A stretch of DNA of 64,000 nucleotides, taken from the NCBI GenBank assembly GCA_013298895.1, contig JAAFJM010000001.1:124001-188000 (forward strand). Reading direction: 5' to 3'. The notes under the pieces were generated by a model. It was not told the origin of the DNA. It did no database searches and saw only the letters and a program-made list of their open reading frames with translations. Shown piece after piece: positions 2-47,105 of this stretch (the stretch's first letter is position 1; each line of letters starts with the position of its first letter). A program made the position numbers and the translations under genes. The stretch comes from Bacteroidota bacterium. GTDB taxonomy: Bacteria > Bacteroidota > Bacteroidia > UKL13-3.

Positions 2-39
2 AATCAATTCAAAATTCAAAATCAAACATTCAAAATTTC
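2..39. repeat. Heptanucleotide-period array inside GT2 coding sequence
   Basis: Five successive 7-nt units starting at base 5 (CAATTCA, AAATTCA, AAATCAA, ACATTCA, AAATTTC) share an A/T plus TCA pattern. The array is in frame within the glycosyltransferase gene and is translated. It has the same period as the arrays near 19.1, 20.1, 26.0, 38.7 and 40.3 kb. It is short and AT-rich, so chance contributes to the match. Confidence 0.45.
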
Positions 40-4177: not shown

Positions 4178-7100
4178 ATGAAATCAAAATTTACTAATTT
4201 TTACGTTAAGCTAAGTTTCTACTTAACTGTATTTATTGGGCTTTCAGCTAGCAATGCTTTTGCTCAAGGATTTGCGGGCGGTAAAACTTATGTGGTAAAT
4301 GGTCAGGTTGATCAGGTAGCTCCAATTGACACTTTTGTTAATTTATCTGGTGCTGGAACTTCAGGGGCAATTACCTACTTAAACACATTTGGTATTGATG
4401 TAGCACAGCCACAAGGAACCGTTACAATACTTTTAGATCAAGGATACTCTGGATCAGAGCCTTCTTCTATTCAGGTAGGTGCTTCTACAGGTGCAGGTTA
4501 TCCTAATATGAGTGCCACTAGACCAGTTGTGTTAAAACCTAAAGCTGGTCTTAGTTTTACCATTTCAACAACAGCAGTTGTTGCTCCAAATGGAAGTTTA
4601 TTTAGAATTTTTGGAAGTACAAATTTTACTATTGATGGTAATTCAGGTAATAACCAAAGAAGTTTAACATTCAGTATGGGAAGCTCAACAACATCAACTG
4701 CAAGAGTAATTGATATTATTCCTGCTTCAGGTGCGGCTTCAAATAGGATTAGAAATGTAGCTATAAGGAATTGCAATTTGGTTGGTAACTCAACTAGTAA
4801 TTCTATAAATACTTATGCAGGTATTTATTTTGGAGGCTCAACAGGAACTCCACAAAATGCAGCGATTGGAACTAATTATAATATAAGTTATGTAAATAAC
4901 CTTATTTTAGCTGTTCAAAATGGTATTTACCATAGAGGATTTCCAACAAATTCAACAGTTTTTCCTTCTCAAGATACTGGTATAAATGTTACCAACAATA
5001 TTATTGGTAATTATACAAACCCAATAAATCCAACAAATTTTGCAGGTATTGGCGGAACAAGTTCTAATTTGTCAGGTATATATTTACAAACCGTTTCCAA
5101 TTCAACTATTTCAGGTAATGTTATCAGAAATACTTTACCAATAAGTGTGGCCAATGTAAATGGAGGTTTTGCTGCAATAAGATTAGCTACAGATGGAAAT
5201 CAGTTAGCACTAGATTCAAATATTAAAGTTGTTAAAAATACAATTTATAATGTTTTTTCAAATGTAGCAAGCCAGGGAGTTTCGGGGATAAGAATAAGTT
5301 TAGGAGCTCACACTACATCAAGAAGATTATTGGTTGCAAATAATTCAATTGCCGATATCGCATCAATAAATGGCGCTTCATCTATAACAAGTATCGGATC
5401 ATATACATCAGGAATTTTAGTTGATAATGCAACAAACTACGTTGGATTAGAGGTATACTATAATTCAGTAAATTTATACGATACTTTGGCAGCAGCAAAT
5501 TCTGTTTCTGCTTGTTTTGTTGTAGGGACATCAACAAATGGTGGAATAAGAATGATGAATAATTCATATTCAAATAAATTTTCTAATACAGGATCAAACA
5601 TATCAGGTTATCAAAACTATGCTTTGGTTGCAGCTGCAAATAATATTAATCCTTTTTCTTATTCAAATTTCAATAATTATTATTCAAATACATTTGGTTC
5701 GGGATATGCTTTTGTTGCTGGAATAGTTAGAAATGGTTTAATAAGAAATGTTTCAACACTTAAAAACTATAGATTATATTCAAATTCTGATTCAAATAGT
5801 TTTGCAGTGGTTTCTCCTTTTACAAATGATTCCATTTTAACAATTAATAATGGAGTTTCAAGTGTACTTTATAATAGAGGATATGTTTTTGCAAGTCTTT
5901 CACAATTCAATAAAGGCGTATCTGATTCAATTATAAACAGAGTTGGAGATGACATTTTGGGAAATACAAGAACGGGATTGGGTAAATTTACTTCAATAGG
6001 ATGTCATCAATGGAATGGTGATTCTTTAAACATACCTTCTGTATTAATTGCTGGTTCAACTTATCAAATAAACGGGGTTTCAAATCCACCCAAAATTAGC
6101 TCGCCTAACTCAGGCTCATTTGCTAACTTATCTGAAGCTATTACTCATTTAAATGCATATGGAATTACAGGAAATCAAAACAATGTTGTATTGCAAATTT
6201 CGCCAAATTATCAAAGAGAAACAACTTGGATTCCTGCAATTGTTGATTATCCAGGCTCAACACCTTCTTTAAAAGTTATCATTAGACCACAAGTTGGACA
6301 TACAGATACTATCTGGTCCCCAAATGAAATAAATGCTGCCAATACTTCTGTATTGAGATTTATGGGCGCCCGAAATGTTATTCTTGATGGATTATCAAGT
6401 TCAAATACCAATACTAGGAATTTAACAGTTATGTTTAATGCAAAAGCTGTTACTCCTAATGCTCGAGTTATTGGAATAGTACCAACTGATACATCTAGCC
6501 AAAATATTACCATAAAAAATATTAATATATTAGGAAATACCTCAACATCAGCTATAAACACTTTTGCGGGTATATATTATGGACATCCTTTCATTAATTC
6601 GGTGCCCCCTTCGGTAAATGATACATTAAGATCTGTTGATAATATAAATATTAATATTGAAAATAATTTAATTCAAGGTGTTAGAAATGGTATTTACGTT
6701 AGAGGTTCTGCAGCAAATCCTCAAGGTTCTGCTCCCACCTTTGCTACAACTGCTCTTGGAGTAGTAGTAAATAGTATAAAAAATATTAAAGTAATAAGCA
6801 ATGTTATTGGTGGTAATATTGCTCCTGGAGGTAGTACACCAACAACTTATATTGGAGGTGCTGCAGACCAAGCTGGAATATATATGTCTGGAGTAGAAGC
6901 AGCAGTTATCGATTCAAACATAATAAGAAACTGTTTGCCAACAACAACCTTATCTAACGGATTCAGAGGAATTGATGTGGTTGAACTTTCTGCAAGATAC
7001 CCAAATTTTGATGTAATAATTAGTAGGAATTTTATATATAATTTGGTTACTGCGACAGGTGCAAGTGCAATAGGCATAAGAACTCAATTTAGTGCTGCTA

Positions 7101-10100
7101 ATGCAATTATCAATGGTGTTAGTGTTGGAACAAGAAGTTATTTTATCATTAACAATTCTGTTTCAAATATTTTATCAAGAGGTTCTGGTGCTAATATTAG
7201 CGTAAATAATCCAACAGGTATATTATTAGATGCATCAACCGCTGTAAGCGGAACTAATGTATTATCTTTAATAAATAACACAGTTAATATGAGTGGCAAT
7301 AATTACTTAAATGCAAATAGCGGTATAACAGCGTTGTATTTAGGAGCTAATATTAGAGGTGGAATTTCTAGTTTAAATAATATTTTTGGTGTAACTGCAA
7401 ATAGAAATAATGCTGGAAATATGTATTCTGTTTGTTTATTATCTGCAACAAGTCCATTTGCTAAAAATGCAGCATTTTTACTTCCAGAATCAGATTTTAA
7501 TTCATACTTCGTTTCTGGTTCAAATCCTACACTTGCCAATAATATATTAATGGCAACACCTGCTGCCACGCCAACCACAAGAACAAATATTAATTCTTTG
7601 CGCGAGTTTACAGGTAGAAATATTGATTTAAGCTCTTTTAATTTTCCAACTAGATTTGAAAATGACACTCTTCCTGATTTGGTTACATTTACCGCAGGTA
7701 CAAGATACACAACAGGAGGTTCAGTTTCATTAGTTACTAATGATATTTATGGTAACTCTAGAGGTGCAAATATGAATATAGGTGCAGTTAAATTTGCTTT
7801 AGTCAACTCTGGTTTGCAACCAAATGCTGTTTATCAAATTAATGGTTTAGATAATTTTCCATTACAAACCAATCCAACAGTTGGTTCTTTCAGAAATCTA
7901 AGGTCTGCAGTGAACTATTTAAATGCTTTCGGAACTGGTTTGTCTTTTACTGGTTATAGTCCTGTAAGATTAGAGTTTAGTGCTGGTTATATTGGTGAAA
8001 CTGATAGTTTTGTTACTCCAATTACTGTTTTTGACTATCCTACTGCAAACCAAAGCGTTCCTGTAATAGTGAGTGTAGCTGCAGGAAGAAAGGATACTAT
8101 TAGATTCACGAATTTTAATTCTGCACCAGCGGCAAATTCAAGTTTGATTCGAATTTCAAGTGGTCGTTACTTTGGATTTGATGGTTCAAACAATGGTTCA
8201 AGTTCAAGAGATTTAACAATTGTTATGCCTTCAATTATGAATACTTCAACGTATAAGATTATTGATATTGTTGGTGGACAGAGTTCAGTTTTTTCTCAAA
8301 GCTTATCAACTTCAGATAATTTTGTGAAAAATTGTAATTTAATAGGGAATTCAACCAATTCTGCAATCAATACGTTTGCAGCAATTTATATGGGAGGTAT
8401 ATCAGCTACGCCATCAAATTCTCTTGGCTTAGGTGGAAATAATAATAATGCATTTATTAATAATTTTATTGGAGGTTGTCAATATGGTGTTTATCTAAGA
8501 GGTAATGGGGTGCGCGGACAAGGAGATTTAAACACAACAATTAATGAAAATATTATTGGTGGAATTGTTGCTCCCGGTGGAACTCAAGTTACTGATTATT
8601 TTGGAGGTATAAATAATGCTTCTGGTATATTCTGTGTAGGTCAGACTCTAGCTAGCATCTCAAGGAATAAAATTCAAAATAATATTGCAGGTTTTTCAAA
8701 TCCTCGAGGCATTGAATTAGCTACAATTGTTGGGAATACTGTTTTAGATTCTGCAAATGTCATTGATGGAAATATAATTAATAACATTGGCTCAACCGTT
8801 GGTGCTAGTTCTGCTTATGGAATTTATATAAACTTTGGTTCAGATAGAGGAAACGTTGTAAATAGTACTAAAATTCACAATAATATGATTTCAAAAATAT
8901 ATGGACAAGGTGGTACTCCATACATGTCTGGTATTTTTGGAATTGCAATTGATGCAGTAGCGACATTTAATGATCCTAATATTAGCATTAATTTTAATTC
9001 AATAAATTTAGGCTCAGCTAATACATTAGCATCAAATAGCAGAAGTGCTTGTTTGGCAGTTTCTCCTAGATTTCCTTATGATTTTTCAACTACCTCTTCT
9101 TTGGGTTATGGCTTTAAAATTTATAATAATCTATTTAGTAATAAATTAGGTGGTATTACAGGTAGTACAGGTGTTAAAGCTCGTGCAGTTTCTATTGGTA
9201 CTACCATAAGTCCTATTTCAAATTCAGATAATAACAATTATTTTTGTAATGCAACGAATGCAATTAATGGATTAATTGTAGCAAATGACAGTACCGCATC
9301 GCCTGTAAATTATAATACTTGGGATAGTTTGTATATTTATACTGGTGGTGATTTGTTCAGTTCTAATTTTACTGTTCCTTTTATTAATGACACAAATCTA
9401 TTTATTGCTCCATCAACAACTACAGTTTTGTACGCGGCTGGTAGACCAATTTCTGGTATTGTTTCAGATGTTTCTTTGAATACAAGAAATAATATTGCAC
9501 CAACCATAGGAGCTCATGAATATCCAGGTGGAAATATTATCGATAGTTTGGTACCTAGAATTTTACCTATGAATTCAGTAACTTGTTTGAATTCTATTTT
9601 TAATCAAATTAGTTTTATTATTGAAGATAGATATTATACTGGTGACGTTTTAACTTATAGAATAAATGGAGGTACTTCTATCAATTTATCTGGATTTGAT
9701 GGTGGTGTAACTGCTGGTGGTTATAGAATAAGGAATTTTAATTTCCCTGTTTCTGCTTTTGCAAGTGGCGGTGTTATTGAATATAAAATTACTGCAAATG
9801 ACATTGATGGTAATAGTGGAGTTTATCCTTATAACAAACCTTGGGATACTTTATCAACTGGATTGTCAACTTTTCCGTATACTATGAATTTTGAAGATGG
9901 ATTAAAAGGATGGAATACCAATACATTAACAAGAGGAGGATTTTGGAATGTAGGTGCATTTGGTTCTAACGCAAATCCTTCGCATGCAACTGAAAATGGA
10001 ATTAAATGTGCATTGTTTCCGTCAAGCACTTTACCGGCTGGAGCTTCTGCTCGTTTAATATCTCCTTGTTTTAATATGGCTGCCATGGGAAGTGCTGCAC

Positions 10101-12952
10101 GTCCAATGTTACGTTTCAGATTTTCTCAAAGTAATTTTATTGCCGCAAAAAGGGATTCAATTATTGTTAGACCAATAATTAATGGTTTTCCTGGTCCAGA
10201 ACTTAAAGTTGTCGTGAGACCAAATGCTCAATCGCCTTATCCAGATTGGTTTACTTATGAAGCTTGTTTAAGCGAATACAGAACCCCGGGTAATATTTAT
10301 AGTTTTCAATTTGATGCTTTTAGTACTGGAGGTGGTCAAAATATCATGATTGATAGTATTCAGATTTTTGATGATGCACAAAATCAAACAGTTGTTCCAT
10401 TGGCATCAACTATTTGTAATGCAAGTCAACCGTATAAAATTACCATACCTAATTCAGATAATCGTTATGTTTATAGGGCAATAGAAGTAGACAAATCTGG
10501 AAATGGCCTAAGTGTATTAGATACAGCTTATGGTAATTCAAGTGATTTGACTTTAAATTTTGCTAATCGGCAAATGGATACAATTAGATATATTGTTTCA
10601 GCTATTAATTATGGATCCGAAACTTATCAGCCAATTGGTTCTGGTATTAGTCCTAATTATTGTAGTAATAACTTACCTGGAGGTACTTTAGTTGCGTTCG
10701 TAAATAGATTTAATAGACCAACAACCGCTATTGGATCATATATTATCCCTGATTTGTCTGCTGGTGCATTTAATGGATCAGTTAATGATGGTGATCAATT
10801 TAAACCTGATGCAGTGAAAAATGGTAACTCTGTTAGATATGAAATTTTATCTCCTACTGCTTCTTATTCAAATAGCAGTTATGGTACTGCATGGACACTA
10901 TTGAATACTTCAATAAGATCTGTTGAAAGCGGAAATCCAGCCACAAATGTGGTATTTACTGCGCCTACAGGTTCTACAAATGCTAAAGTATCTTTTGTGC
11001 CTACTTTCGCTGAAGGTGATACTACATTTGTATTAGCTACAACGTTAAGATTTATTGGAACTGATTGCGATACAACTGTATACAGATACATTAAGGTAGC
11101 TAATCCAATTGCATATGGTTTTGTATCAGGCCCTAGAGTTGATACAACTTGTACATCTACGCCAATAAATTTTGCAGTAGTTCAAGGTGACCAATCTGGA
11201 GGAGTAACCTGGTCATGGAATTTTGGAGATGGTTCAACTGGAAATAATAGTTTCAAGAATCCTACATATACCTTCGCAAATGCTGGTACTTATAGAGTAA
11301 GACTAACAGCTACCTCTCCTCTTGGTATTCAAGATACTGTTTCAAAACTTATTACTGTATTGCAAGGACCTAGTGCTGCATTTACTTCTAGTTCGGCTGT
11401 AATTGTATGTCAGAATGATTCTACATTATTTAATGCAAATGATTTAGGTACTGGTTTCACTTATTTATGGAATTTCCCTGGCAATGTTGTAAGAAATAGC
11501 AGTAAAACATCTTTCTTATTCCAAAAAGCCGACACAAATTATGCTGTCAGTTTAAAAGTTACTAATCCTGTTAATGGTTGTTTTGCATTAAATAACAGAA
11601 TATTCCCATCTTATGCAAAACCAAAAGCTAAATTCACAGTAACTAGTCATTGTCAAGGTCAATTCATGCCTTATGTAGATAGTTCTTCAATTTCTAATAG
11701 TGACAGGTTAGGTTATTTCTGGTCATTTAGCACAGGTGAGCAGCGTCAATCAAATAATTTCCAAATTAAATTCTCTAATAGTGGTACTTTTAAAGTTACT
11801 TTAAGATTAACTTCAGCTGCTGGTTGTGAGGATACAATTTCAAAATTAGTTACAGTTTACGAAACCCCTAAACCAAATTTCTTATTCACTTCAGCTTGTA
11901 CAAATGATTCAGCTACTTTCAATAATCAAACAGTTTATGGTGCTGGTATTCAAAATGCTGGTTTTATATGGAATTTTGGTGATAATAGCGGAGTAGATAC
12001 ACGTCAAGATCCTAAACATCGTTATTTGAATAACAATAGTGGGGAAGATTTTATTGTTAAGTTAATAGCAAGTAATTTGCTTTATGGTTGCAAAGATTCT
12101 GTTACTAAGAATGTTTCAATTAAATCTGCTCCAGTTGCTGTGGCAGAATTAGGTGGAACAACTAAAACAGGACTTACCACCGATAAATTATGTCAAGGTA
12201 ATAAAGTTACATTTACTAGTAAGTCGTTTTCTAATGCAGGCTCTACTGTTACATGTACTTGGATTTTTGGTAATGGTCAAAATAGTGATTGTAATTCATT
12301 CAATACTTATGATAATCCAGGTGTTTACAATTGGACTTTAACAGCTTCAGCTGATGGTTGTCAAGATACTAAAACAGGAGCTATTACTGTTTTAGCAAAA
12401 CCAGTTATTACTTATAGTAAACAATCTTTTGGAGTAATTCCTGGCAGGTTTACAATTGATAATCGTAAAGTATTTACTCCTTCTGATTTAGCTTCTGATT
12501 TGAATTCTTATTCATGGAATTTTGGTGATATTGATAGTACAACTACTAATCAAAGAATTGCTGATTTTACTTACAATAAAAAAGGTACATATAAAGTTAG
12601 AATGCAAGTAACCACTTCAGAAGGTTGTATTGTTTCATATACAGATACTGTTAATGTATTTGCAGGAGTAAGTGTTGGTGAAGAATTATCCGCTAAGTAC
12701 AATTTGGTGGCTTATCCGAATCCATTAACCAATAATGCATTTATAAGTTTAAGTTTACTAAAAACTGATGATGTAACAATAACTATTACAGATGTATTAG
12801 GAAGAGAAATTTCATCAACTAGTTATCTTAACACTAATGCTGGTAAGCATAACTTTGAATTGACTTCAAACAATTTCAATACAGCAGGTACTTATTTTGT
12901 TAAGGTTAAAATAGGTGATACTGTTATAGTAAAATCATTAGTGAAACAATAA
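4178..12952 (+). CDS. Giant secreted protein: three homologous beta-helix-like modules, PKD repeats, T9SS sorting tail
   Basis: 2924 residues in one uninterrupted frame. A signal peptide (about 1-29, ending N-A-F-A-Q) is followed by three homologous modules of roughly 590 residues starting near residues 35, 627 and 1217. Each opens with T/V-Y-x-[VI]-N-G, then carries a G-x-x-x-[FI]-x-[FIL]-D-G motif, an N-T-[FY]-A-[GA]-I-Y repeat and an N-G-[IV]-Y-x-R-G motif, and closes with a D-x-x-G-N-[ST]-R ... I-G-[AC] motif. The many short N-rich strand repeats resemble right-handed parallel beta-helix proteins. Next come a jellyroll-like segment (about 1900-2080), around six PKD-type domains (W-N-F-G-D-G at about 2345) and a T9SS type A sorting domain from about 2830 (A-Y-P-N-P start, F-V-K-V-K end). 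It should be exported by Sec, then secreted and cell-surface attached by the T9SS. Adhesion or polysaccharide binding is inferred; no catalytic motif was recognised. Confidence 0.85.
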   Translation: MKSKFTNFYVKLSFYLTVFIGLSASNAFAQGFAGGKTYVVNGQVDQVAPIDTFVNLSGAGTSGAITYLNTFGIDVAQPQGTVTILLDQGYSGSEPSSIQVGASTGAGYPNMSATRPVVLKPKAGLSFTISTTAVVAPNGSLFRIFGSTNFTIDGNSGNNQRSLTFSMGSSTTSTARVIDIIPASGAASNRIRNVAIRNCNLVGNSTSNSINTYAGIYFGGSTGTPQNAAIGTNYNISYVNNLILAVQNGIYHRGFPTNSTVFPSQDTGINVTNNIIGNYTNPINPTNFAGIGGTSSNLSGIYLQTVSNSTISGNVIRNTLPISVANVNGGFAAIRLATDGNQLALDSNIKVVKNTIYNVFSNVASQGVSGIRISLGAHTTSRRLLVANNSIADIASINGASSITSIGSYTSGILVDNATNYVGLEVYYNSVNLYDTLAAANSVSACFVVGTSTNGGIRMMNNSYSNKFSNTGSNISGYQNYALVAAANNINPFSYSNFNNYYSNTFGSGYAFVAGIVRNGLIRNVSTLKNYRLYSNSDSNSFAVVSPFTNDSILTINNGVSSVLYNRGYVFASLSQFNKGVSDSIINRVGDDILGNTRTGLGKFTSIGCHQWNGDSLNIPSVLIAGSTYQINGVSNPPKISSPNSGSFANLSEAITHLNAYGITGNQNNVVLQISPNYQRETTWIPAIVDYPGSTPSLKVIIRPQVGHTDTIWSPNEINAANTSVLRFMGARNVILDGLSSSNTNTRNLTVMFNAKAVTPNARVIGIVPTDTSSQNITIKNINILGNTSTSAINTFAGIYYGHPFINSVPPSVNDTLRSVDNININIENNLIQGVRNGIYVRGSAANPQGSAPTFATTALGVVVNSIKNIKVISNVIGGNIAPGGSTPTTYIGGAADQAGIYMSGVEAAVIDSNIIRNCLPTTTLSNGFRGIDVVELSARYPNFDVIISRNFIYNLVTATGASAIGIRTQFSAANAIINGVSVGTRSYFIINNSVSNILSRGSGANISVNNPTGILLDASTAVSGTNVLSLINNTVNMSGNNYLNANSGITALYLGANIRGGISSLNNIFGVTANRNNAGNMYSVCLLSATSPFAKNAAFLLPESDFNSYFVSGSNPTLANNILMATPAATPTTRTNINSLREFTGRNIDLSSFNFPTRFENDTLPDLVTFTAGTRYTTGGSVSLVTNDIYGNSRGANMNIGAVKFALVNSGLQPNAVYQINGLDNFPLQTNPTVGSFRNLRSAVNYLNAFGTGLSFTGYSPVRLEFSAGYIGETDSFVTPITVFDYPTANQSVPVIVSVAAGRKDTIRFTNFNSAPAANSSLIRISSGRYFGFDGSNNGSSSRDLTIVMPSIMNTSTYKIIDIVGGQSSVFSQSLSTSDNFVKNCNLIGNSTNSAINTFAAIYMGGISATPSNSLGLGGNNNNAFINNFIGGCQYGVYLRGNGVRGQGDLNTTINENIIGGIVAPGGTQVTDYFGGINNASGIFCVGQTLASISRNKIQNNIAGFSNPRGIELATIVGNTVLDSANVIDGNIINNIGSTVGASSAYGIYINFGSDRGNVVNSTKIHNNMISKIYGQGGTPYMSGIFGIAIDAVATFNDPNISINFNSINLGSANTLASNSRSACLAVSPRFPYDFSTTSSLGYGFKIYNNLFSNKLGGITGSTGVKARAVSIGTTISPISNSDNNNYFCNATNAINGLIVANDSTASPVNYNTWDSLYIYTGGDLFSSNFTVPFINDTNLFIAPSTTTVLYAAGRPISGIVSDVSLNTRNNIAPTIGAHEYPGGNIIDSLVPRILPMNSVTCLNSIFNQISFIIEDRYYTGDVLTYRINGGTSINLSGFDGGVTAGGYRIRNFNFPVSAFASGGVIEYKITANDIDGNSGVYPYNKPWDTLSTGLSTFPYTMNFEDGLKGWNTNTLTRGGFWNVGAFGSNANPSHATENGIKCALFPSSTLPAGASARLISPCFNMAAMGSAARPMLRFRFSQSNFIAAKRDSIIVRPIINGFPGPELKVVVRPNAQSPYPDWFTYEACLSEYRTPGNIYSFQFDAFSTGGGQNIMIDSIQIFDDAQNQTVVPLASTICNASQPYKITIPNSDNRYVYRAIEVDKSGNGLSVLDTAYGNSSDLTLNFANRQMDTIRYIVSAINYGSETYQPIGSGISPNYCSNNLPGGTLVAFVNRFNRPTTAIGSYIIPDLSAGAFNGSVNDGDQFKPDAVKNGNSVRYEILSPTASYSNSSYGTAWTLLNTSIRSVESGNPATNVVFTAPTGSTNAKVSFVPTFAEGDTTFVLATTLRFIGTDCDTTVYRYIKVANPIAYGFVSGPRVDTTCTSTPINFAVVQGDQSGGVTWSWNFGDGSTGNNSFKNPTYTFANAGTYRVRLTATSPLGIQDTVSKLITVLQGPSAAFTSSSAVIVCQNDSTLFNANDLGTGFTYLWNFPGNVVRNSSKTSFLFQKADTNYAVSLKVTNPVNGCFALNNRIFPSYAKPKAKFTVTSHCQGQFMPYVDSSSISNSDRLGYFWSFSTGEQRQSNNFQIKFSNSGTFKVTLRLTSAAGCEDTISKLVTVYETPKPNFLFTSACTNDSATFNNQTVYGAGIQNAGFIWNFGDNSGVDTRQDPKHRYLNNNSGEDFIVKLIASNLLYGCKDSVTKNVSIKSAPVAVAELGGTTKTGLTTDKLCQGNKVTFTSKSFSNAGSTVTCTWIFGNGQNSDCNSFNTYDNPGVYNWTLTASADGCQDTKTGAITVLAKPVITYSKQSFGVIPGRFTIDNRKVFTPSDLASDLNSYSWNFGDIDSTTTNQRIADFTYNKKGTYKVRMQVTTSEGCIVSYTDTVNVFAGVSVGEELSAKYNLVAYPNPLTNNAFISLSLLKTDDVTITITDVLGREISSTSYLNTNAGKHNFELTSNNFNTAGTYFVKVKIGDTVIVKSLVKQ

Positions 12953-13752: not shown

Positions 13753-14153
13753 AGTTTTGGTAAATTTATTTTATCAGCAATAATTATACATTCATTAAAT
13801 TCACCCTTGATCTTATTATAAAATAACTTGGCATCTAATTTTGTTCTAAAATCACCAACTCTTATTTTAAAATAAGGTTGGTTATATGCTAAATACGCTG
13901 TTTGATCAGGATATAGTCTTAAAAATTTAGTTTTAATATTATTTGCATTATTTCTTTCATTTCCTGAAAAAAGTTGTATCCTGTATCCGTTAATGGTTTG
14001 ATTAATACTATTTTCTCTATTTTTTTTGTCTATGATACTATCTAGGTATATGGTTTCACCTTTTATTTTAACGGAACCTATTTTAGTTTGTGCTTTTATA
14101 TTTAGGCTCAAACACACACAAACACACACACAAATAATAAATTTAACTTTCAT
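13749..14153 (-). CDS. Exported SPOR-domain protein
   Basis: A 134-residue protein with a signal peptide (1-22, ending N-I-K-A-Q) and a C-terminal SPOR domain from about residue 55. The domain shows the family pattern Y-R-I-Q-L-F-S-G, central Y-F-K-I-R-V-G-D-F and late A-K-L-F-Y-N-K-I. SPOR domains bind glycan strands stripped of stem peptides, so a periplasmic peptidoglycan-binding role at division or remodelling sites is likely. The hydrophobic core of the signal peptide is V-C-V-C-V-C, encoded by two adjoining TG dinucleotide tracts (plus-strand CA repeats at 14112-14132). The gene ends 4 nt inside the truA 3' end and starts 6 nt from the deoC stop, so it is probably co-transcribed with deoC. 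Confidence 0.85.
   Translation of the reverse strand: MKVKFIICVCVCVCLSLNIKAQTKIGSVKIKGETIYLDSIIDKKNRENSINQTINGYRIQLFSGNERNNANNIKTKFLRLYPDQTAYLAYNQPYFKIRVGDFRTKLDAKLFYNKIKGEFNECIIIADKINLPKL
14112..14132. repeat. CA/TG dinucleotide tracts in the SPOR-protein signal peptide
   Basis: Two adjacent CA tracts (14112-14120 and 14122-14132) separated by one extra A. On the minus strand they encode alternating Val-Cys in the signal-peptide core, codons 8-14 of the SPOR gene. A one-repeat slip would shift the frame 20-odd nt after the start codon. Confidence 0.8.
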
Positions 14154-14804: not shown

Positions 14805-14820
14805 TTATAGTATTTATAAT

Positions 14821-14854
14821 TTGTATTGAAAGTAATGCTATACTTTCAATACAA
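14821..14854. other. Perfect inverted repeat between secA and deoC
   Basis: Arms TTGTATTGAAAGTA (14821-14834) and TACTTTCAATACAA (14841-14854) are perfect complements around a 6-nt loop. The repeat lies 16 nt downstream of the secA stop and 16 nt upstream of the deoC start, both leftward. No T-tract follows on the minus strand, so it may be an attenuating or processing hairpin or an operator for deoC rather than a standard terminator. Confidence 0.7.
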
Positions 14855-14869
14855 TATATTATTTTAATG

Positions 14870-19108: not shown

Positions 19109-19157
19109 TTTTAGTTTTGAGTACCTAGTTCTTAGTACTTAGTTATGAGTAGATAGT
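19109..19157. repeat. Heptanucleotide-period array (units ending AGT)
   Basis: Seven contiguous 7-nt units: TTTTAGT, TTTGAGT, ACCTAGT, TCTTAGT, ACTTAGT, TATGAGT, AGATAGT. A second short run of period 7 (TTGGCAT, TTGGTAT, TTAGAAT) occupies 19174-19194 and abuts the hydrolase stop codon at 19195. Confidence 0.75.
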
Positions 19158-19194
19158 TATTCTTTTAGCATTTTTGGCATTTGGTATTTAGAAT

Positions 19195-20058: not shown

Positions 20059-20080
20059 GGTATTGTTTTTTTAATAACAT

Positions 20081-20157
20081 CCTTTGATTTGTGATTTTTG
20101 AGGTGAGAATTGTGAATTGTAAGTTGTGAGATGTGAAATGTGAGTTGAGAAATGGTG
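20081..20157. repeat. Heptanucleotide-period array, eleven units (type TTGTGA)
   Basis: Eleven consecutive 7-nt units, most ending GTGA or GAGA: CCTTTGA, TTTGTGA, TTTTTGA, GGTGAGA, ATTGTGA, ATTGTAA, GTTGTGA, GATGTGA, AATGTGA, GTTGAGA, AATGGTG. It starts 23 nt upstream of the hydrolase start codon. Confidence 0.8.
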
Positions 20158-20174
20158 AGGGATATAATAAAAAC

Positions 20175-20224
20175 GAAATTCAAAACGCGAAACTCGAAAA
20201 CCCGAAACTCGTAACTCGCAACAA
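20175..20224. repeat. Heptanucleotide-period array, different unit (GAAACTC)
   Basis: Units GAAATTC, AAAACGC, GAAACTC, GAAAACC, (one extra C), GAAACTC, GTAACTC, GCAACAA. The unit is unrelated to that of the array 17 nt away but the period is the same. It lies in the gap between the divergent hydrolase and lon genes. Confidence 0.75.
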
Positions 20225-20282
20225 TATTTGGCATTTATATTGTCAATATTACTATTTTTACGATTACTAAAAACATTTATAA

Positions 20283-24713: not shown

Positions 24714-26140
24714 TATTTTTTACTTGGTATTGAATTTTCAATGCTTTGTTTAATGTAAGCGTTTATAAAATCGTAAATTAATTGATACGATTCATTGTAT
24801 TTACTTAATGTTACAGCATATGCTTTATCATCAATATCATGATAAAAACTATAATTTCCCATTAAATAAAAAAAGAATGATTTGACGCCAGCTTCTGTAA
24901 AATAATAATGGTCACTATTAGCAGCTTTTCCTCTTGAATTAATATTGGGTAAATAGTTTCCTTGTTCATTGATATAACGCAATAATTTAAATTCATCAGG
25001 AAATTCAGTGGCATTAACTGCCGTCATTCCTTTATCGCCCGTTGCCATCAAATCTAAATTTAGCAATAATGCCATTTTATTTAATGCAATAGAAGGATTT
25101 TGTGTGTAATAATAGGAACCTAATAGGCCTGCCTCTTCACCTGCAAATGCAATAAACAGTACGGAATAATCTAGAGGAGTTTTGGCAATACTGCCAGCTA
25201 AATCGAGCATCATTGCTATTCCGCTTGCATTATCATTTGCACCAGGAAATATGGCTTCTCCAAATTTTCCAAGATGGTCGTAATGTGCCGTTATTACTAT
25301 AAATGAATCAGAGTAAAGTTTACCTTTAACTATTCCAAGTACATTTTGTGTTTGGTGATTTATTAAAATGGATTCTATATTAATATCTAATTCTACCATA
25401 TGGTGTTTTATGGCATTTTTTTGGATATAAATAATTGGGAATTTTTCTTTTTGTAATGCAACACTCCAAGTAAACTTATCTTGATTATTGAATATTAAGC
25501 CTTTTGCTCCAATTGAGTTCGATAAAATACTTTCGGCCCGTTCAGGGTGCAAAAATGTTTTGCCTTTAATATCAGTAACTACAATAAAAAATTTACGCAA
25601 TGATTTTTTGGTGAAAGTTTCAAAAGCAAAACTGTTATCTATAGTAGCAGAATCTATATAAATTACATTGAATTTCCCCTTTATGGTTGGACATCCAGCA
25701 TTGACAATAAATTCTCTGCCAGCTTCTAATCCAACACCATCAATATTTAAAAAAGTTTCACCAGGAAAAGTAACTACAGGAAAGCCGAAAGTTTGATAGT
25801 AATCAACGGTAGGGGAGCCGAGTCTGTTTTTTCTAAAAATTTCGGCTATGAAGCGAGATGCTTTTTTGTCTCCTTCATTTACGTAACCCCTCCCAGCAAA
25901 ATCATCTGAACATAATTTTTCAATCAACTGTTTTGCATATTCTTTATTTTGAGCTTTTGATGCAATAGGCAATACGCAATACGCAACAGGCAATACGCAA
26001 TAAAAAATAAACAAATAACAACTAGTAAAAAATGAATTGCAGTTGTGCTTTAGCAATTGGAAAAAGAGGAAAAGAAAAGTAAGTTTAGGGCAAAAAAAAT
26101 CCTTTGAAATAGTTTTAATACGCTTTCTCAGGATTTTCAT
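24713..26140 (-). CDS. Exported M28-family zinc aminopeptidase
   Basis: A 475-residue exported metallopeptidase. The M28 ligands are visible: T-A-H-Y-D-H-L-G (His near 286), P-G-A-N-D-N-A-S-G (bridging Asp), F-A-G-E-E-A-G-L-L-G-S (catalytic and ligand Glu), N-L-D-L-M (Asp) and N-S-D-H-Y-Y-F (His). A PA-like insert precedes the catalytic part. The signal sequence is odd: a long basic N-terminus of about 40 residues precedes a hydrophobic core, Y-C-V-L-P-V-A twice, which is translated from a 7-nt tandem array and ends S-K-A-Q. Co-transcription with purS upstream (13-nt gap) and the flippase downstream is likely. The true start could be further inside; no better ATG exists before the core. Confidence 0.85.
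   Translation of the reverse strand: MKILRKRIKTISKDFFCPKLTFLFLFFQLLKHNCNSFFTSCYLFIFYCVLPVAYCVLPIASKAQNKEYAKQLIEKLCSDDFAGRGYVNEGDKKASRFIAEIFRKNRLGSPTVDYYQTFGFPVVTFPGETFLNIDGVGLEAGREFIVNAGCPTIKGKFNVIYIDSATIDNSFAFETFTKKSLRKFFIVVTDIKGKTFLHPERAESILSNSIGAKGLIFNNQDKFTWSVALQKEKFPIIYIQKNAIKHHMVELDINIESILINHQTQNVLGIVKGKLYSDSFIVITAHYDHLGKFGEAIFPGANDNASGIAMMLDLAGSIAKTPLDYSVLFIAFAGEEAGLLGSYYYTQNPSIALNKMALLLNLDLMATGDKGMTAVNATEFPDEFKLLRYINEQGNYLPNINSRGKAANSDHYYFTEAGVKSFFFYLMGNYSFYHDIDDKAYAVTLSKYNESYQLIYDFINAYIKQSIENSIPSKK
25962..26003. repeat. Heptanucleotide array (GCAATAC) encoding a signal-peptide core
   Basis: Six 7-nt units: GCAATAG, GCAATAC, GCAATAC, GCAACAG, GCAATAC, GCAATAA. Three units make seven codons, so the minus-strand translation repeats every seven residues (Y-C-V-L-P-V/I-A). 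Gain or loss of one unit would shift the frame of the M28 peptidase gene. Confidence 0.85.
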
Positions 26141-38671: not shown

Positions 38672-38982
38672 TTTGCGAAGGTAAGGCTTTTAGTTGATAG
38701 TTGTCGGTTGTTAGTTCATAGAGGTTTTTGGGATTGGTTTGTTGATTACGTTAATTTGATGTGTTGAAAGGTTTGTGTTTTATGATTATTAACTAAAAAA
38801 GGTAGGGTGGGGGAGTAATGCCTCAGACAAAACGCATCTCAAATTTGTAACACCTGCAGCATGTAGATGCTTTTGTTTGGCAGTGAGAGATTGTTTTTCT
38901 ATCATTAAAACTAAGGTTGAGCAAAGCATAAATTCCAATTTAACCTTGCTAAGGTTAGCTATAGTTTTCTAGTAATATAAAA
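38672..38982. other. Intergenic region of 311 nt between divergent-from-RluD and permease genes
   Basis: No coding potential seen on either strand. It holds a CGAAGGTA box at 38676-38683 (TACCTTCG on the minus strand) 5 nt before the pseudouridine synthase start, a 7-nt-period array at 38691-38725, a G-rich stretch near 38810, and a small hairpin TAACCTT-GCT-AAGGTTA at 38941-38957 downstream of the permease stop. I see nothing else. Confidence 0.6.
38691..38725. repeat. Heptanucleotide-period array (TAGTTGA type)
   Basis: Five 7-nt units: TAGTTGA, TAGTTGT, CGGTTGT, TAGTTCA, TAGAGGT. It starts 20 nt upstream of the pseudouridine synthase start codon. Confidence 0.65.
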
Positions 38983-40215
38983 CTATTCGAACCGAAGTGC
39001 TTCTATAGGATCCAATTCACTGGCTTTTTTAGCAGGATAATAACCAGAAGCAATTCCAACTACAAAACATAAAAATAAGCCTAAACCTATCCAAGCCCAA
39101 GGAATTATAAAGCCTCCACCAATAAAGGATGTAACAATATTTCCAACAATAATTCCTAAAATAATTCCACCCAATCCGCCCATTTGGCAAATTACCAACG
39201 CTTCAATTAAAAACTGTTTCTTAATGTTTTGTTGCGTAGCACCTAACGATTTTCTAATACCTATTTCGCGGGTACGTTCTGTAACAGAAACCAACATAAT
39301 ATTCATCAATCCAATGGCTGCGCCCAATAAGGTTATAAAACCTATGGCTGTAGCAGCAATGGTAATAAAACTTAACTGACCAATAACTTGATTGGCCACA
39401 TTATCGGCTTTCATTATTTCAAAATTATTTGGTTCATTTACACGCAAACCTCTTACTCTTCTAAACACACTGATGGCTTCGTCTACCGCCATATCCATAT
39501 TGGTAACATTTGAAACTGCAACTGTAACCACTGCACTCATACTTTTTTCCGAAAATACTTGGTAAGCATTATCAATTGGCACAATTACCATTCTATCGCC
39601 ACCAAAACCCATGCTTGAACCTTTTTCTTTTAACACGCCAATTACCCTGTATTTGGCCGCACCAACAGCAATCAGTTCACCAATTGGCATTTTATATTTA
39701 AATAATTTGTCTTTTACTTCTTTGCCAATAATAGCCACATTTGCAGCCGAGGTAATATCTTGTTTTGAAAAATTTCGGCCATAATCTAAATCGTAGGCAG
39801 CTACTTGCAGGTAATTTTCATCGCTTCCCAATACCATGATATTAGGTTCGGTTTTATAACTAACGTATTTTATGGTTGCTGTCCAGCTGGCATTAATCGA
39901 GGTAGAAAAAGTACAAGGAAAACGGAATTGCTCAGCAAATTTTTCTGTTTGTTGTTGGGTGATGTCGGTATATTTTTTTTGTGGCTTACCGCTTACCCCA
40001 AACCTAACTGAGTTGCCCCTATTTTTTATATTAAAAGTATTGGCACCAATATTATTAAAACTTTTATTGATACTCAGTTTCATGCCATCAATGGCAGTTA
40101 AAATGCCTACCAAAGCCATTATACCAATTGATATAATTAAAGCCGTAATAACTGCTCTGGTTCTATTAGCCCCAATAGAGGTAAAAGCTATTTTTATATT
40201 TTCGGTTAATGTCAT
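38983..40215 (-). CDS. ABC transporter permease (MacB/FtsX type)
   Basis: With the start at 40215 the protein has 410 residues and begins [12 protein letters not shown], the typical N-terminus of MacB-like permeases. One N-terminal membrane segment ([11 protein letters not shown]), a large periplasmic MacB core, then three C-terminal segments with the FtsX signature [14 protein letters not shown]. The likely role is export of peptides, lipoproteins or toxins with a separate ATPase that is not in this window. An in-frame start at 40401 would add 62 residues, partly from the 7-nt array at 40295-40343, and I consider it unlikely. Confidence 0.85.
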
Positions 40216-40294: not shown

Positions 40295-40343
40295 GCAATG
40301 GACAATGAGCAATTGGCAATTGGCAAATTGTAATCAAGCAACT
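40295..40343. repeat. Heptanucleotide-period array (GCAATTG type)
   Basis: Units GCAATGG, ACAATGA, GCAATTG, GCAATTG, GCAAATT, GTAATCA, AGCAACT. It lies upstream of the permease start, inside the open frame extending from 40401. It closely resembles the array at 25962 (GCAATAC). Confidence 0.75.
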
Positions 40344-45858: not shown

Positions 45859-45979
45859 CTAAACACTCAATAACTCTAACGCATCAACCCTTTCAACTTT
45901 AAAACATAAAAACTTCAGCACATCCCAACTTAAAAACGTAAACACTTCCCAACATCAACACTTAAACACTCCTCAACTT
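45859..45979. repeat. Octanucleotide-period degenerate array
   Basis: About 15 consecutive 8-nt units, most ending AAC or CAC: CTAAACAC, TCAATAAC, TCTAACGC, ATCAACCC, then (after one irregular step) TTTAAAAC, ATAAAAAC, TTCAGCAC, ATCCCAAC, TTAAAAAC, GTAAACAC, TTCCCAAC, ATCAACAC, TTAAACAC, TCCTCAAC. It occupies the whole second half of the 217-nt gap and runs into the stop codon of the GT4 gene at 45978. Confidence 0.8.
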
Positions 45980-47105
45980 AAATTTCCAAGAGCTGCTCTG
46001 TTAAATATTTCCAAGTAAACTTTTGTTTTTCTAATTCAATATTGGCTGTGAATTCTGCTTCTTTATTTTGTGTGTAATAATCGCTAATGGCTTGTGCTAT
46101 GGCTTGCTCGTCTCTTTCTACCACATAACCAACTACCTCGTGCGGAACTAACTCGGCTAAGCCGCCTACATTGGTAACCAACATAGGTTTATTGTAATAA
46201 TACGCTATTTGTGTAACACCACTTTGGGTGGCAGTAATATAAGTTTGCACCACTAAATCGGCAGCCGAAAAATAAACGCCAACTTCATTATTTGGGATAA
46301 AATCGGTGCGAAGAATGACGTTATCTGTGAGCCCTAAATTTTTTATTTGTTCCAAATAAGGCTCACTGTTTTCGTAAAATTCGCCTGCTACAATTAACTT
46401 TAAATTGGGATTACTTTGTTGTAATAAAGCAAAACTGTTTAACAATAAAGTTAGGCCTTTGTATTTACGTATAAACCCAAAAAATAAAAGGTAATTACAG
46501 TTTTCATCTAATCCTAGTTTGCGTTTTGCTTCTTGTTTATCAAGCAATGGACCAAACATATCGTACATAGGGTGAGGCACATATTTTTTAGGTTTACCTG
46601 TGGTAAATAAATCAATATGGGCATAAACTTCGCGACTCATAGCTAAAAAGCCACGGTTACTGTCTATAAAATATTGTGTAAACGCAGTATCAAAAAACTG
46701 TTGCTCGTGAGGAATAATATTATCAGCAATGGTAATAATTTTGGTTTTACCATTGGCTCTAATTAACCTTGCTATGGTACCAAAAGCAGGCGCCATAAAA
46801 CTCATCCAATACCTAAAAATTACTAAGTCGTATTGTTTTTTATTTAATTTATAGCCAACTGAAAGCCAATTAATCGGGTTAATTGAATTGATAATGGAGT
46901 GAATTACAATATCAGTTGGTTGCGGGTCATCGCTCATTTGCGTTTTACCCGGAAATAAAAACTTTGGATATTGCAACGAAAAACTAGCTATTTCGCATTC
47001 ATGACCTTGTGCATTAAACTCACGGCACAAACGTTCGTTATAAGTAGCCAACCCACCACGCAAAGGCCAAGCTGGACCAATAATTAAAATTTTTTTCTTA
47101 GTCAT
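45978..47105 (-). CDS. GT4-family (GT-B fold) glycosyltransferase
   Basis: 375 residues, two Rossmann-like domains. The N-terminal W-P-L-R-G-G-L-A-T-Y-N-E-R-L is the acceptor-side glycine-rich loop; a conserved R-K-Y-K-G-L motif follows, then V-T-N-V-G-G-L-A-E-L. The usual E-x7-E is partly replaced (T-Q-S-G-V-T-Q-I-A). Substrate unknown; envelope polysaccharide assembly is likely. It overlaps the GT2 gene by 8 nt and ends the leftward operon. Confidence 0.88.
   Translation of the reverse strand: MTKKKILIIGPAWPLRGGLATYNERLCREFNAQGHECEIASFSLQYPKFLFPGKTQMSDDPQPTDIVIHSIINSINPINWLSVGYKLNKKQYDLVIFRYWMSFMAPAFGTIARLIRANGKTKIITIADNIIPHEQQFFDTAFTQYFIDSNRGFLAMSREVYAHIDLFTTGKPKKYVPHPMYDMFGPLLDKQEAKRKLGLDENCNYLLFFGFIRKYKGLTLLLNSFALLQQSNPNLKLIVAGEFYENSEPYLEQIKNLGLTDNVILRTDFIPNNEVGVYFSAADLVVQTYITATQSGVTQIAYYYNKPMLVTNVGGLAELVPHEVVGYVVERDEQAIAQAISDYYTQNKEAEFTANIELEKQKFTWKYLTEQLLEI

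Follow-up and report, generated by a model that had tools for sequence, protein, structure and literature searches.

Degenerate heptamer and octamer arrays at gene edges in a genus of Bacteroidota: strand polarity, unit turnover and a possible role in transcription insulation

Heptamer repeats in bacteria and the arrays of one window

Tandem heptamers are known from several groups of bacteria. The STRR heptanucleotides of cyanobacteria are short tandem heptamers, like the arrays treated here, and use a few fixed units. Three tandem heptanucleotides in Calothrix are mentioned in the available part of PMC4692102, and a satellite survey, as far as its accessible text goes, mentions heptamer-derived satellites in Bacteria in general (PMC6749651).

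The closest system is that of Xanthomonas. Here, according to the available text of PMC4692102, GGGAATC heptamers are over-represented, form degenerate (GGGANTN)n runs and convergent pairs, and turn over in length. Upstream of ORFs they occupy the antisense strand, and after stops the sense strand, in both cases at a distance of no more than 50 bp. Most of the repeats stand between the same genes in two species, with differing length and sequence, and the surrounding loci are more stable. The same text describes the GGGGA(C/T)T repeats of Nostoc, also intergenic heptamers, with a nearly uniform unit and few inverted pairs. A further set, built on TAACTGA, is reported from marine Beggiatoaceae, Cyanobacteria and some Bacteroidetes; in the Beggiatoa genome, most of these intergenic heptamers closely precede starts (PMC4679880, in the portion available).

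The DNA analysed here, called the window, is a 64-kb stretch (G000:C1:124001-188000) of a 3.6-Mb genome (90 contigs; 32% G+C) from a bacterium of the phylum Bacteroidota. By membership, its arrays are intergenic heptamer repeats of the Xanthomonas kind, with many units, added octamers and no need of G-runs. Like GGGAATC, they are mostly intergenic (22 in 84 kb, as against 5 in 662 kb of coding DNA, in G000), are made of tandem 7-nt units with fixed and free positions, form convergent pairs, show a polarity of the G-strand to gene edges, and hold the same place at different lengths in related species. The stable neighbourhood of the Xanthomonas repeats also has its counterpart, in that fewer arrays here stand at synteny breakpoints. 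Xanthomonas, however, has one G-quadruplex-capable unit, whereas seven families and several period-8 consensi occur here, mostly without G-runs; exchange of unit type at one site and scarce hairpin terminators likewise set the present arrays apart.

The comparison with TAACTGA is similar. This unit matches, in the same sense, the NNAACTN units of the right arms found here. The exact unit is not what these genomes use; the comparable units are YAGTTNN and its reverse, with free letters, whereas the TAACTGA system has, in the text available, a single favoured unit whose near relatives are rare as repeats (PMC4679880). Apart from the TAACTGA paper (PMC4679880), a search of the open-access literature turned up no description of such arrays in Bacteroidota and, for heptamers, none of many families per genome, period 8, unit switching or terminator exclusion. 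The initial annotation of the window had nonetheless gone too far in proposing that a process creating or maintaining heptamer spacing would be new, since heptamers have been published, as the available parts of the two papers make plain, for Xanthomonas (PMC4692102) and for Beggiatoaceae (PMC4679880).

Table 1. Periodic arrays of the window and the region upstream of lon (positions within the 64-kb stretch)
Position	Strand	Feature	Basis and remarks
2..39	+	Weak period 7 in glycosyltransferase-like coding sequence	Lag-7 0.61; frame 2 open; not counted as an intergenic array
19109..19157	+	YAGTTNN heptamer array in the gap between a ribosomal protein L21 gene and a hydrolase gene	TRF 19111-19144 period 7, 19112-19160 period 14; lag-7 0.64, lag-14 0.71
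20059..20282	.	Intergenic region holding both dyad arms, between divergent alpha/beta hydrolase and lon genes	ORFs; Pfam Abhydrolase_1, Lon
20081..20157	+	Left arm of the dyad upstream of lon: about 10 degenerate TGNGANN heptamers	G-rich on +; TRF 20085-20147 period 7; lag-7 identity 0.66
20175..20224	+	Right arm of the lon dyad: CGNAACY heptamers and octamers	C-rich on +, adjoins the lon start; TRF 20174-20222 period 7, 20174-20211 period 15; lag-7 0.67
25962..26003	-	TTGCNNA heptamer array in M28 peptidase ORF	TRF period 7 and 21; lag-7 0.83
38691..38725	+	YAGTTNN heptamer array upstream of a pseudouridine synthase gene	Pfam PseudoU_synth_2; lag-7 0.61
40295..40343	+	GCAATNN (reverse complement NNATTGC) heptamer array	TRF 40309-40326; lag-7 0.62
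45859..45979	+	Period-8 array in the gap between a lipase-maturation-factor-like gene and a glycosyltransferase gene (Pfam)	C-rich on +; TRF 45928-45970 period 8, 45903-45982 period 24, 45894-45956 period 32, also period 16 (near 45894-45982); array scan 45878-45970 period 8; lag-8 0.54

Period 7 is confirmed at all seven places for which it had been claimed (lag-7 identity 0.61-0.83), with TRF reporting it at six of the seven, and period 8 at 45859-45979 (lag-8 0.54, TRF period 8). To call the periodicity near-perfect, as the initial annotation did, was an overstatement, as only 25962-26003 exceeds 0.67. The place missing from the TRF list, 38691-38725, is the weakest of the set and also falls under the threshold of the array scan.

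Two of the eight places, 2-39 and 25962-26003, lie inside genes. The second lies in the signal-peptide-like N-terminal part of the M28 peptidase, reads YCVLPVAYCVLPIA, and in its frame encodes a repeating hydrophobic peptide; its ortholog in a related species, G006, has equal length and is heavily substituted. A protein of another relative, G003, begins with a similar peptide (position 13869 of the C2 stretch). The array at 40295-40343 probably sits in leader DNA of a MacB/FtsX permease gene: it lies in an extension of the ORF, the permease domain runs from residue 84, and a candidate start codon stands at residue 63 (position 40215). The window also holds, at 4178-12952, a single very long ORF of 2924 codons.

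Genome-wide excess and unit families

Intergenic DNA was defined, crudely, as the DNA outside a greedy set of ORFs of at least 90 codons, and counts were made in unpicked stretches, that is, stretches not selected for arrays, from contigs known via earlier match lists. In G000 these stretches (39 loci, 84.3 kb intergenic) hold 22 period-7 arrays, against 0.6 in dinucleotide-shuffled DNA, and 12 period-8 arrays, against 0.8. Unpicked intergenic DNA gave 20 period-7 and 8 period-8 arrays in G003, and 15 and 10 in G006; shuffled controls for the three genomes lie at 0.0-0.6 for period 7 and 0.6-0.8 for period 8. Periods 5, 6 and 9-12 yielded only 0-3 arrays each in the same DNA. Coding DNA of G000, G003 and G006 (662, 267 and 319 kb) contains 5, 1 and 3 period-7 arrays, where shuffling gives 1.5, 1.5 and 1.0. 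The arrays are real, genome-wide and mostly intergenic. With so few of them in coding DNA, they are not, overall, conserved coding sequence, one of the outcomes that the initial annotation had named as fatal to its reading.

Period-7 and period-8 arrays adjoin within one intergenic region at L022:3298-3479, L031:13712-14019 and L032:11111-11223. No arrays were found in two stretches of G005, a member of the same genus (2.6 kb intergenic, a small sample), or in eight stretches from the wider family and class (11.9 kb, also a small sample).

Autocorrelation gives a less exclusive picture. In an 864-kb set, which took in the window and six loci chosen for their matches, intergenic lag-7 identity reaches 0.326 where shuffling gives 0.310 (z 12.5), and lags 14 and 21 echo it; lags 3 and 4 are high there too (z 8.4 and 10.5). 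In the unpicked intergenic DNA of G000, lag 7 (z 7.6) ranks below lag 4 (z 11.0), and lag 6 reaches z 6.2. The excess at lags 4 and 6 is attributed to A/T tracts, because those lags yield almost no arrays: period 4 gave 2, against 0.5 shuffled, and periods 5 and 6 gave 0 and 1. Thus, the predicted excess at lag 7 over shuffled intergenic DNA exists, and lag 7 is not uniquely enriched; period 7 is in excess, as expected, without being the special period, since period 8 is in excess as well.

Families were named from the data. The column test, first run together with the neighbour-identity test described below on motif-selected units, was repeated on arrays detected by period alone. Unit columns are uneven at p<0.05 in 73 of 166 arrays of both periods. 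Seven families accommodate 86 of the 114 period-7 arrays (TGNGANN 23, YAGTTNN 22, TTGCNNA 15, TGAATNN 13, GTTCGNN 6, TGATTNN 5, CTRGCNN 2), and 28 fit none. Typically, a unit combines a core of four or five fixed letters with two or three free letters. In TGNGANN, the mismatch is 0.08-0.22 in the core and 0.35-0.45 at the free positions. TGNGANN and TGAATNN show this pattern clearly, YAGTTNN and TTGCNNA more weakly; in GTTCGNN it is not evident, and units are few for CTRGCNN and TGATTNN. Among the period-8 consensi are units resembling ATTGTTNN and GATTTNNN. Most unit consensi are without G-runs, although TGGGANN units do occur.

The pattern (TGNGANN)x4 is found in 23 of 58 genomes searched, nine of the ten genus members among them, with 0-2 matches per genus member to the reversed-pattern control. 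The same nine are among the 21 of 56 genomes with (YAGTTNN)x4 (controls 0-5). Among 296 genomes drawn from the phylum, 32 have (TGAGANN)x4. The tenth genus member, G005, has neither (TGNGANN)x4 nor (YAGTTNN)x4, and in other genomes of the family the two patterns occur in 4 of 25 and 5 of 24. Three genomes (G204, G228, G024) have many matches to the reversed control instead; therefore, other heptamers are used elsewhere.

These families correct three statements made from the window. A different unit at each locus is too strong a description of families that span many loci and species. Differing units do not exclude copying either, since units recur in families at many loci, and copying between loci is therefore possible. 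Nor is the period the sole shared feature; many units also share a layout of core plus spacer and a polarity to gene edges.

A fixed core with free spacers of 2-3 nt is, of course, what one would look for if the arrays were the sites of a regulon, recognised through the core by an oligomeric RNA- or DNA-binding protein. TRAP, which binds KAG triplets with short spacers, offers the analogy. The layout appears in the column tests both on period-alone and on motif-selected arrays, the same core recurs at many loci and species, and the position of arrays is conserved, all of which such a protein would explain. It would not explain several unrelated cores in one genome, a unit type that can be exchanged at one site (L045:3657-3999), or flanking genes of the window without obvious common function. 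Binding sites of this kind are accordingly considered improbable.

Turnover between related species

Upstream of lon, the flanks are nearly identical in G000, G006 and G003, and most of the array differs. The content of 20081-20157 is altered in G006 and more so in G003, between flanks that are nearly unchanged, and the right arm, 20175-20224, is longer in both. In the comparison with G006, one of four array-free regions of the lon stretch (14805-14869) has many differences; the other three are almost identical. The array at 19109-19157 is nearly unchanged in G006; beside its ortholog in G003 lies an insertion of ~1.8 kb with a 585-codon ORF (L079:17229-19033). The array at G000 C23:109633-109734 is also unchanged or nearly so in G006, as are two G003-G006 pairs.

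Of 124 collinear intergenic pairs from G000, G003 and G006, 30 (~19 distinct sites) have an array in at least one species. In 27 of the 30 the array is common to both species, so most arrays are old. The median matched fraction is ~0.70 in array pairs, as against 0.85-0.96 in array-free pairs. Free unit positions differ at 69 of 295 (23%), core positions at 18 of 411 (4%) and other intergenic positions at 1187 of 13081 (9%). Labelling positions from the other species gives 64 of 280 free and 16 of 393 core positions. The low divergence of the core is no proof of selection, because replacement of units within a family would also keep it low.

At one site (L045:3657-3999) the unit type itself clearly differs, with CTGGCNN units in G000 and TGNGANN units in G003, and in two weaker cases the period differs (G003 C2:1574 and C2:5962, each against G006). 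The expectation of unit turnover in close relatives is thereby borne out, with conserved sites, one clear change of unit type and two weaker changes of period.

The palindromes found in and near arrays form a separate matter. A 15-bp palindrome, TCACGC(M)(W)(K)GCGTGA, is present in all nine array-bearing genus members (G000 has 6 copies, G003 has 39). Array-free G005 and five other genomes of the family lack it, and two of nine class-level genomes have a single copy each. Sites include C42:5663, C38:16257, C38:17635 and C43:22289 in G003 and C45:55353 in G000. Nine of 14 sampled intergenic copies lie in array regions, at a median of 4 bp from the array, and at one site G003 has the palindrome where G000 and G006 do not. 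It resembles a small insertion with a preference for arrays. Two other palindromes, CCCGATAGCTATCGGG and TCCCGATAAATCGGGA, stand in G003 arrays and are absent at the same G000 sites (L013:586-679, L046:17547-17638), and TCCCGATAGCTATCGGGA is scattered over 15 of 40 genomes searched, array-free G005 included. At L045:17805-18220, units of ~100 bp made of heptamer runs and a CCGTT...AACGG palindrome follow one another, about four in G000 and, in the alignment, fewer in G006.

The indels within arrays bear on how they turn over. In period-7 arrays, 20 of 69 are multiples of 7, as against 13 of 96 elsewhere; in period-8 arrays, 5 of 24 are multiples of 8, as against 15 of 96. Identical neighbouring units are fewer than chance (22 of 288, where shuffled order gives 36.3, sd 4.1), and identical next-but-one units more (38 of 216, expected 27.4, sd 4.0), in a test pooled over eight families, most of which are not significant singly. 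Since neighbours avoid identity, slippage of single units is ruled against as the sole cause. The arrays may instead change as whole units are gained, lost and replaced, an exchange that slippage, or recombination between similar units, would drive.

Such turnover need not, of course, serve anything. The arrays may be purely neutral degenerate minisatellites, on which polymerase or recombination slips in steps of 7-8 nt and which have no job. Turnover at conserved sites agrees with this, as do the commoner multiples of 7 among array indels, the few arrays in coding DNA, and the absence of the TGNGANN and YAGTTNN patterns from G005 and from most other family genomes (present in only 4 of 25 and 5 of 24). 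An idea of slippage set by the polymerase footprint has, moreover, been cited for heptamers (PMC4692102, in the part available). A neutral origin fits less well with neighbouring units that avoid identity, the opposite of simple single-unit slippage, and with the many loci of the TGNGANN and TGAATNN families at which the same positions are fixed. It is a serious possibility, if one short of an even chance.

Breakage offers another origin. Repeats could be added to 3' ends at double-strand breaks and the ends then joined head to head, which would leave a polarity in the product; interstitial telomeric repeats are the analogy. The G-strand does mostly read away from the conserved flank. Matches to the reverse transcriptase family are absent from G000, G001, G006, G008 and G009 (G002 has one, G003 four). 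PF00078 (RVT_1) was not found in G000, which is 98.6% complete, and a reverse-transcriptase, telomerase-like or diversity-generating origin was rejected for that reason; Ku end joining was rejected likewise, as no Ku was found in ten genus members. Arrays are also rarer at synteny breakpoints, which were called crudely from flank matches, than in collinear regions (3 of 72 against 29 of 124, p 0.00025), the opposite of what arrays as marks of rearrangement would show, and that candidate too was rejected. With 27 of 30 array pairs common to both species, and most arrays thus old, extension at breaks is very unlikely.

Polarity, terminators and a possible insulating role

Near starts, 62 of 69 arrays have a G-strand that reads away from the nearest gene edge; near stops, 48 of 60 do. 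This count left out 29 arrays of weak skew and 13 about equidistant from both edges. Because the three genomes share orthologous arrays, these pooled counts, like those of terminators below, are not independent. Taken singly, the genomes give 23 of 26 at starts and 14 of 21 at stops (G000, where the polarity at stops is weak on its own), 19 of 22 and 23 of 27 (G003), and 20 of 21 and 11 of 12 (G006). Regions with arms of both signs have the G-rich arm on the left in 17 of 17 cases; single arms lie in the right half when C-only (25 of 28) and in the left half when G-only (30 of 43). By its location and strand, the array at 19109-19157 is an exception. Arrays occur in 10 of 124 convergent, 91 of 625 codirectional and 24 of 203 divergent regions, with no enrichment between convergent genes, the setting in which terminators are most needed; this speaks against the insulating role described below.

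At 127 listed loci from other genomes, the polarity holds near stops (32 of 44) and not near starts (13 of 28), and arm pairs are convergent at four and divergent at one; for the 47 loci assigned to Bacteroidota, the figures are 19 of 24 near stops and 6 of 11 near starts. Most families here lack G-runs, and the polarity rule is therefore independent of G-quadruplexes.

Arms of opposite skew might be thought to pair in RNA as hairpins, or their G-runs to stack as G-quadruplexes, a role proposed for the GGGAATC repeats in the available text of PMC4692102. The lon dyad, however, folds no better than expected (z -0.59), arm duplexes are no better than column-shuffled ones (mean z -0.32, 16 pairs), true arms pair less strongly than swapped ones (-0.33 against -0.43 kcal per nt), and 20081-20157 contains no GGG run. 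Nor did any Rfam family match at gathering score within the 64-kb window. A structured RNA element was rejected on the want of a stable fold, of co-pairing arms and of an Rfam match; conserved structured RNA, the other outcome named as fatal at the outset, is thus absent (fold z -0.59), and pairing or stacking of the arms is the least probable of the readings considered.

The array-free regions give a background for the polarity. There, DNA before starts has a mild C bias (415 against 238 windows), and DNA after stops has no G/C bias (274 against 276 windows). Selection against false starts was rejected as the sole cause of the polarity, as stops are polarised too and array-free stops are not. 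A neutral origin would place arrays where they do least harm, in A/C-rich leaders without false starts and where no terminator is needed; polarity at stop codons, where array-free DNA is unskewed, counts against it.

Terminators, called like genes by simple scripts (a hairpin plus a T-run), are scarce at array sites. Gene 3' ends have one in 12 of 113 cases when facing arrays, as against 297 of 862 when facing array-free regions; with context and free length matched, 33.5 (sd 4.4) would be expected in place of the 12. In convergent regions, each counted twice, the figures are 3 of 20 with arrays and 157 of 266 without. Where less than 100 nt of DNA is free, the deficit is clear, at 0 of 41 ends against 112 of 345. 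The three longer classes (4 of 22, 4 of 20, 4 of 13) show no significant deficit. By genome it is significant in G000 (p 0.00045) and G003 (p 0.00005) and not in G006 (p 0.14).

The deficit also depends on the strand. In codirectional regions a terminator follows the gene in 3 of 55 cases where a C-rich array lies on the transcribed strand, 6 of 28 where only G-rich arrays do, and 140 of 596 where there is none; wrong-strand terminators hardly differ (9 of 93 against 75 of 596). With arrays masked, and matched array-free regions given identical masks, sense-C arrays kept a modest deficit (2 against 6.9 expected, sd 2.3, P 0.02); sense-G arrays had 7 against 3.4 (sd 1.6) and neutral ones 1 against 2.1. 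That terminators are scarce at arrays of neutral skew as well (1 of 18; in codirectional regions 0 of 10) is not what the strand idea predicts. The strand-dependent deficit fits an insulating role of the C-rich strand and is awkward for a neutral origin. The same deficit is also expected if arrays settle only where no terminator stands, and a hairpin terminator may be a place where arrays are not tolerated.

The insulating role would work as follows. An array transcribed into a gene from its intergenic side would, on either strand, give an A/C-rich, G-poor RNA in which cytosines recur at regular steps of 7-8 nt. Rho, or a similar ring protein, might bind this RNA and terminate stray transcription before it enters the gene. 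Such a site would require a composition and a rhythm and not one sequence, which would leave unit types exchangeable, and arrays would be retained at gene edges where the transcribed strand, C-rich and G-poor, makes a good insulating tract.

The likeness to rut sites is partial. These are, in the available text of PMC6407284, unstructured tracts rich in C and poor in G, in which cytosines recur regularly, every 11-13 nt over ~78 nt. The C-rich arms read into genes do give transcripts with more C than G and little G, although the excess of C over G holds by definition, arms having been classed by skew. The cytosines are regular here as well, yet their step is 7-8 nt in place of the 11-13 nt of that text, and many arrays are shorter than the published stretch of ~78 nt. 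On balance, a transcription-insulating role with Rho as the likely factor is placed slightly above a neutral origin. That the arrays are degenerate 7- and 8-nt minisatellites with turnover of units, kept at gene edges as insulators of the Rho type, is thus favoured only tentatively, at less than even confidence. Its wider form, in which the arrays are sequence-flexible, bidirectional transcription insulators whose position, rhythm and polarity are inherited, whose unit types can be swapped, and to whose class the heptamers of Xanthomonas, Nostoc and Beggiatoa belong, is rather unlikely.

Elsewhere, heptamer repeats have been given, for each bacterial group, their own unit and their own proposed job, such as G-quadruplexes or translational control. 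Here, the many units of one genus share a layout and a polarity, and most of their sites have no hairpin terminator. If this pattern holds, explanations specific to a unit would be unnecessary, and a single testable idea, that of periodic C-rich tracts ending transcription, could take their place. The arrays would also be a natural example of a regulatory site whose position persists while its letters are replaced.
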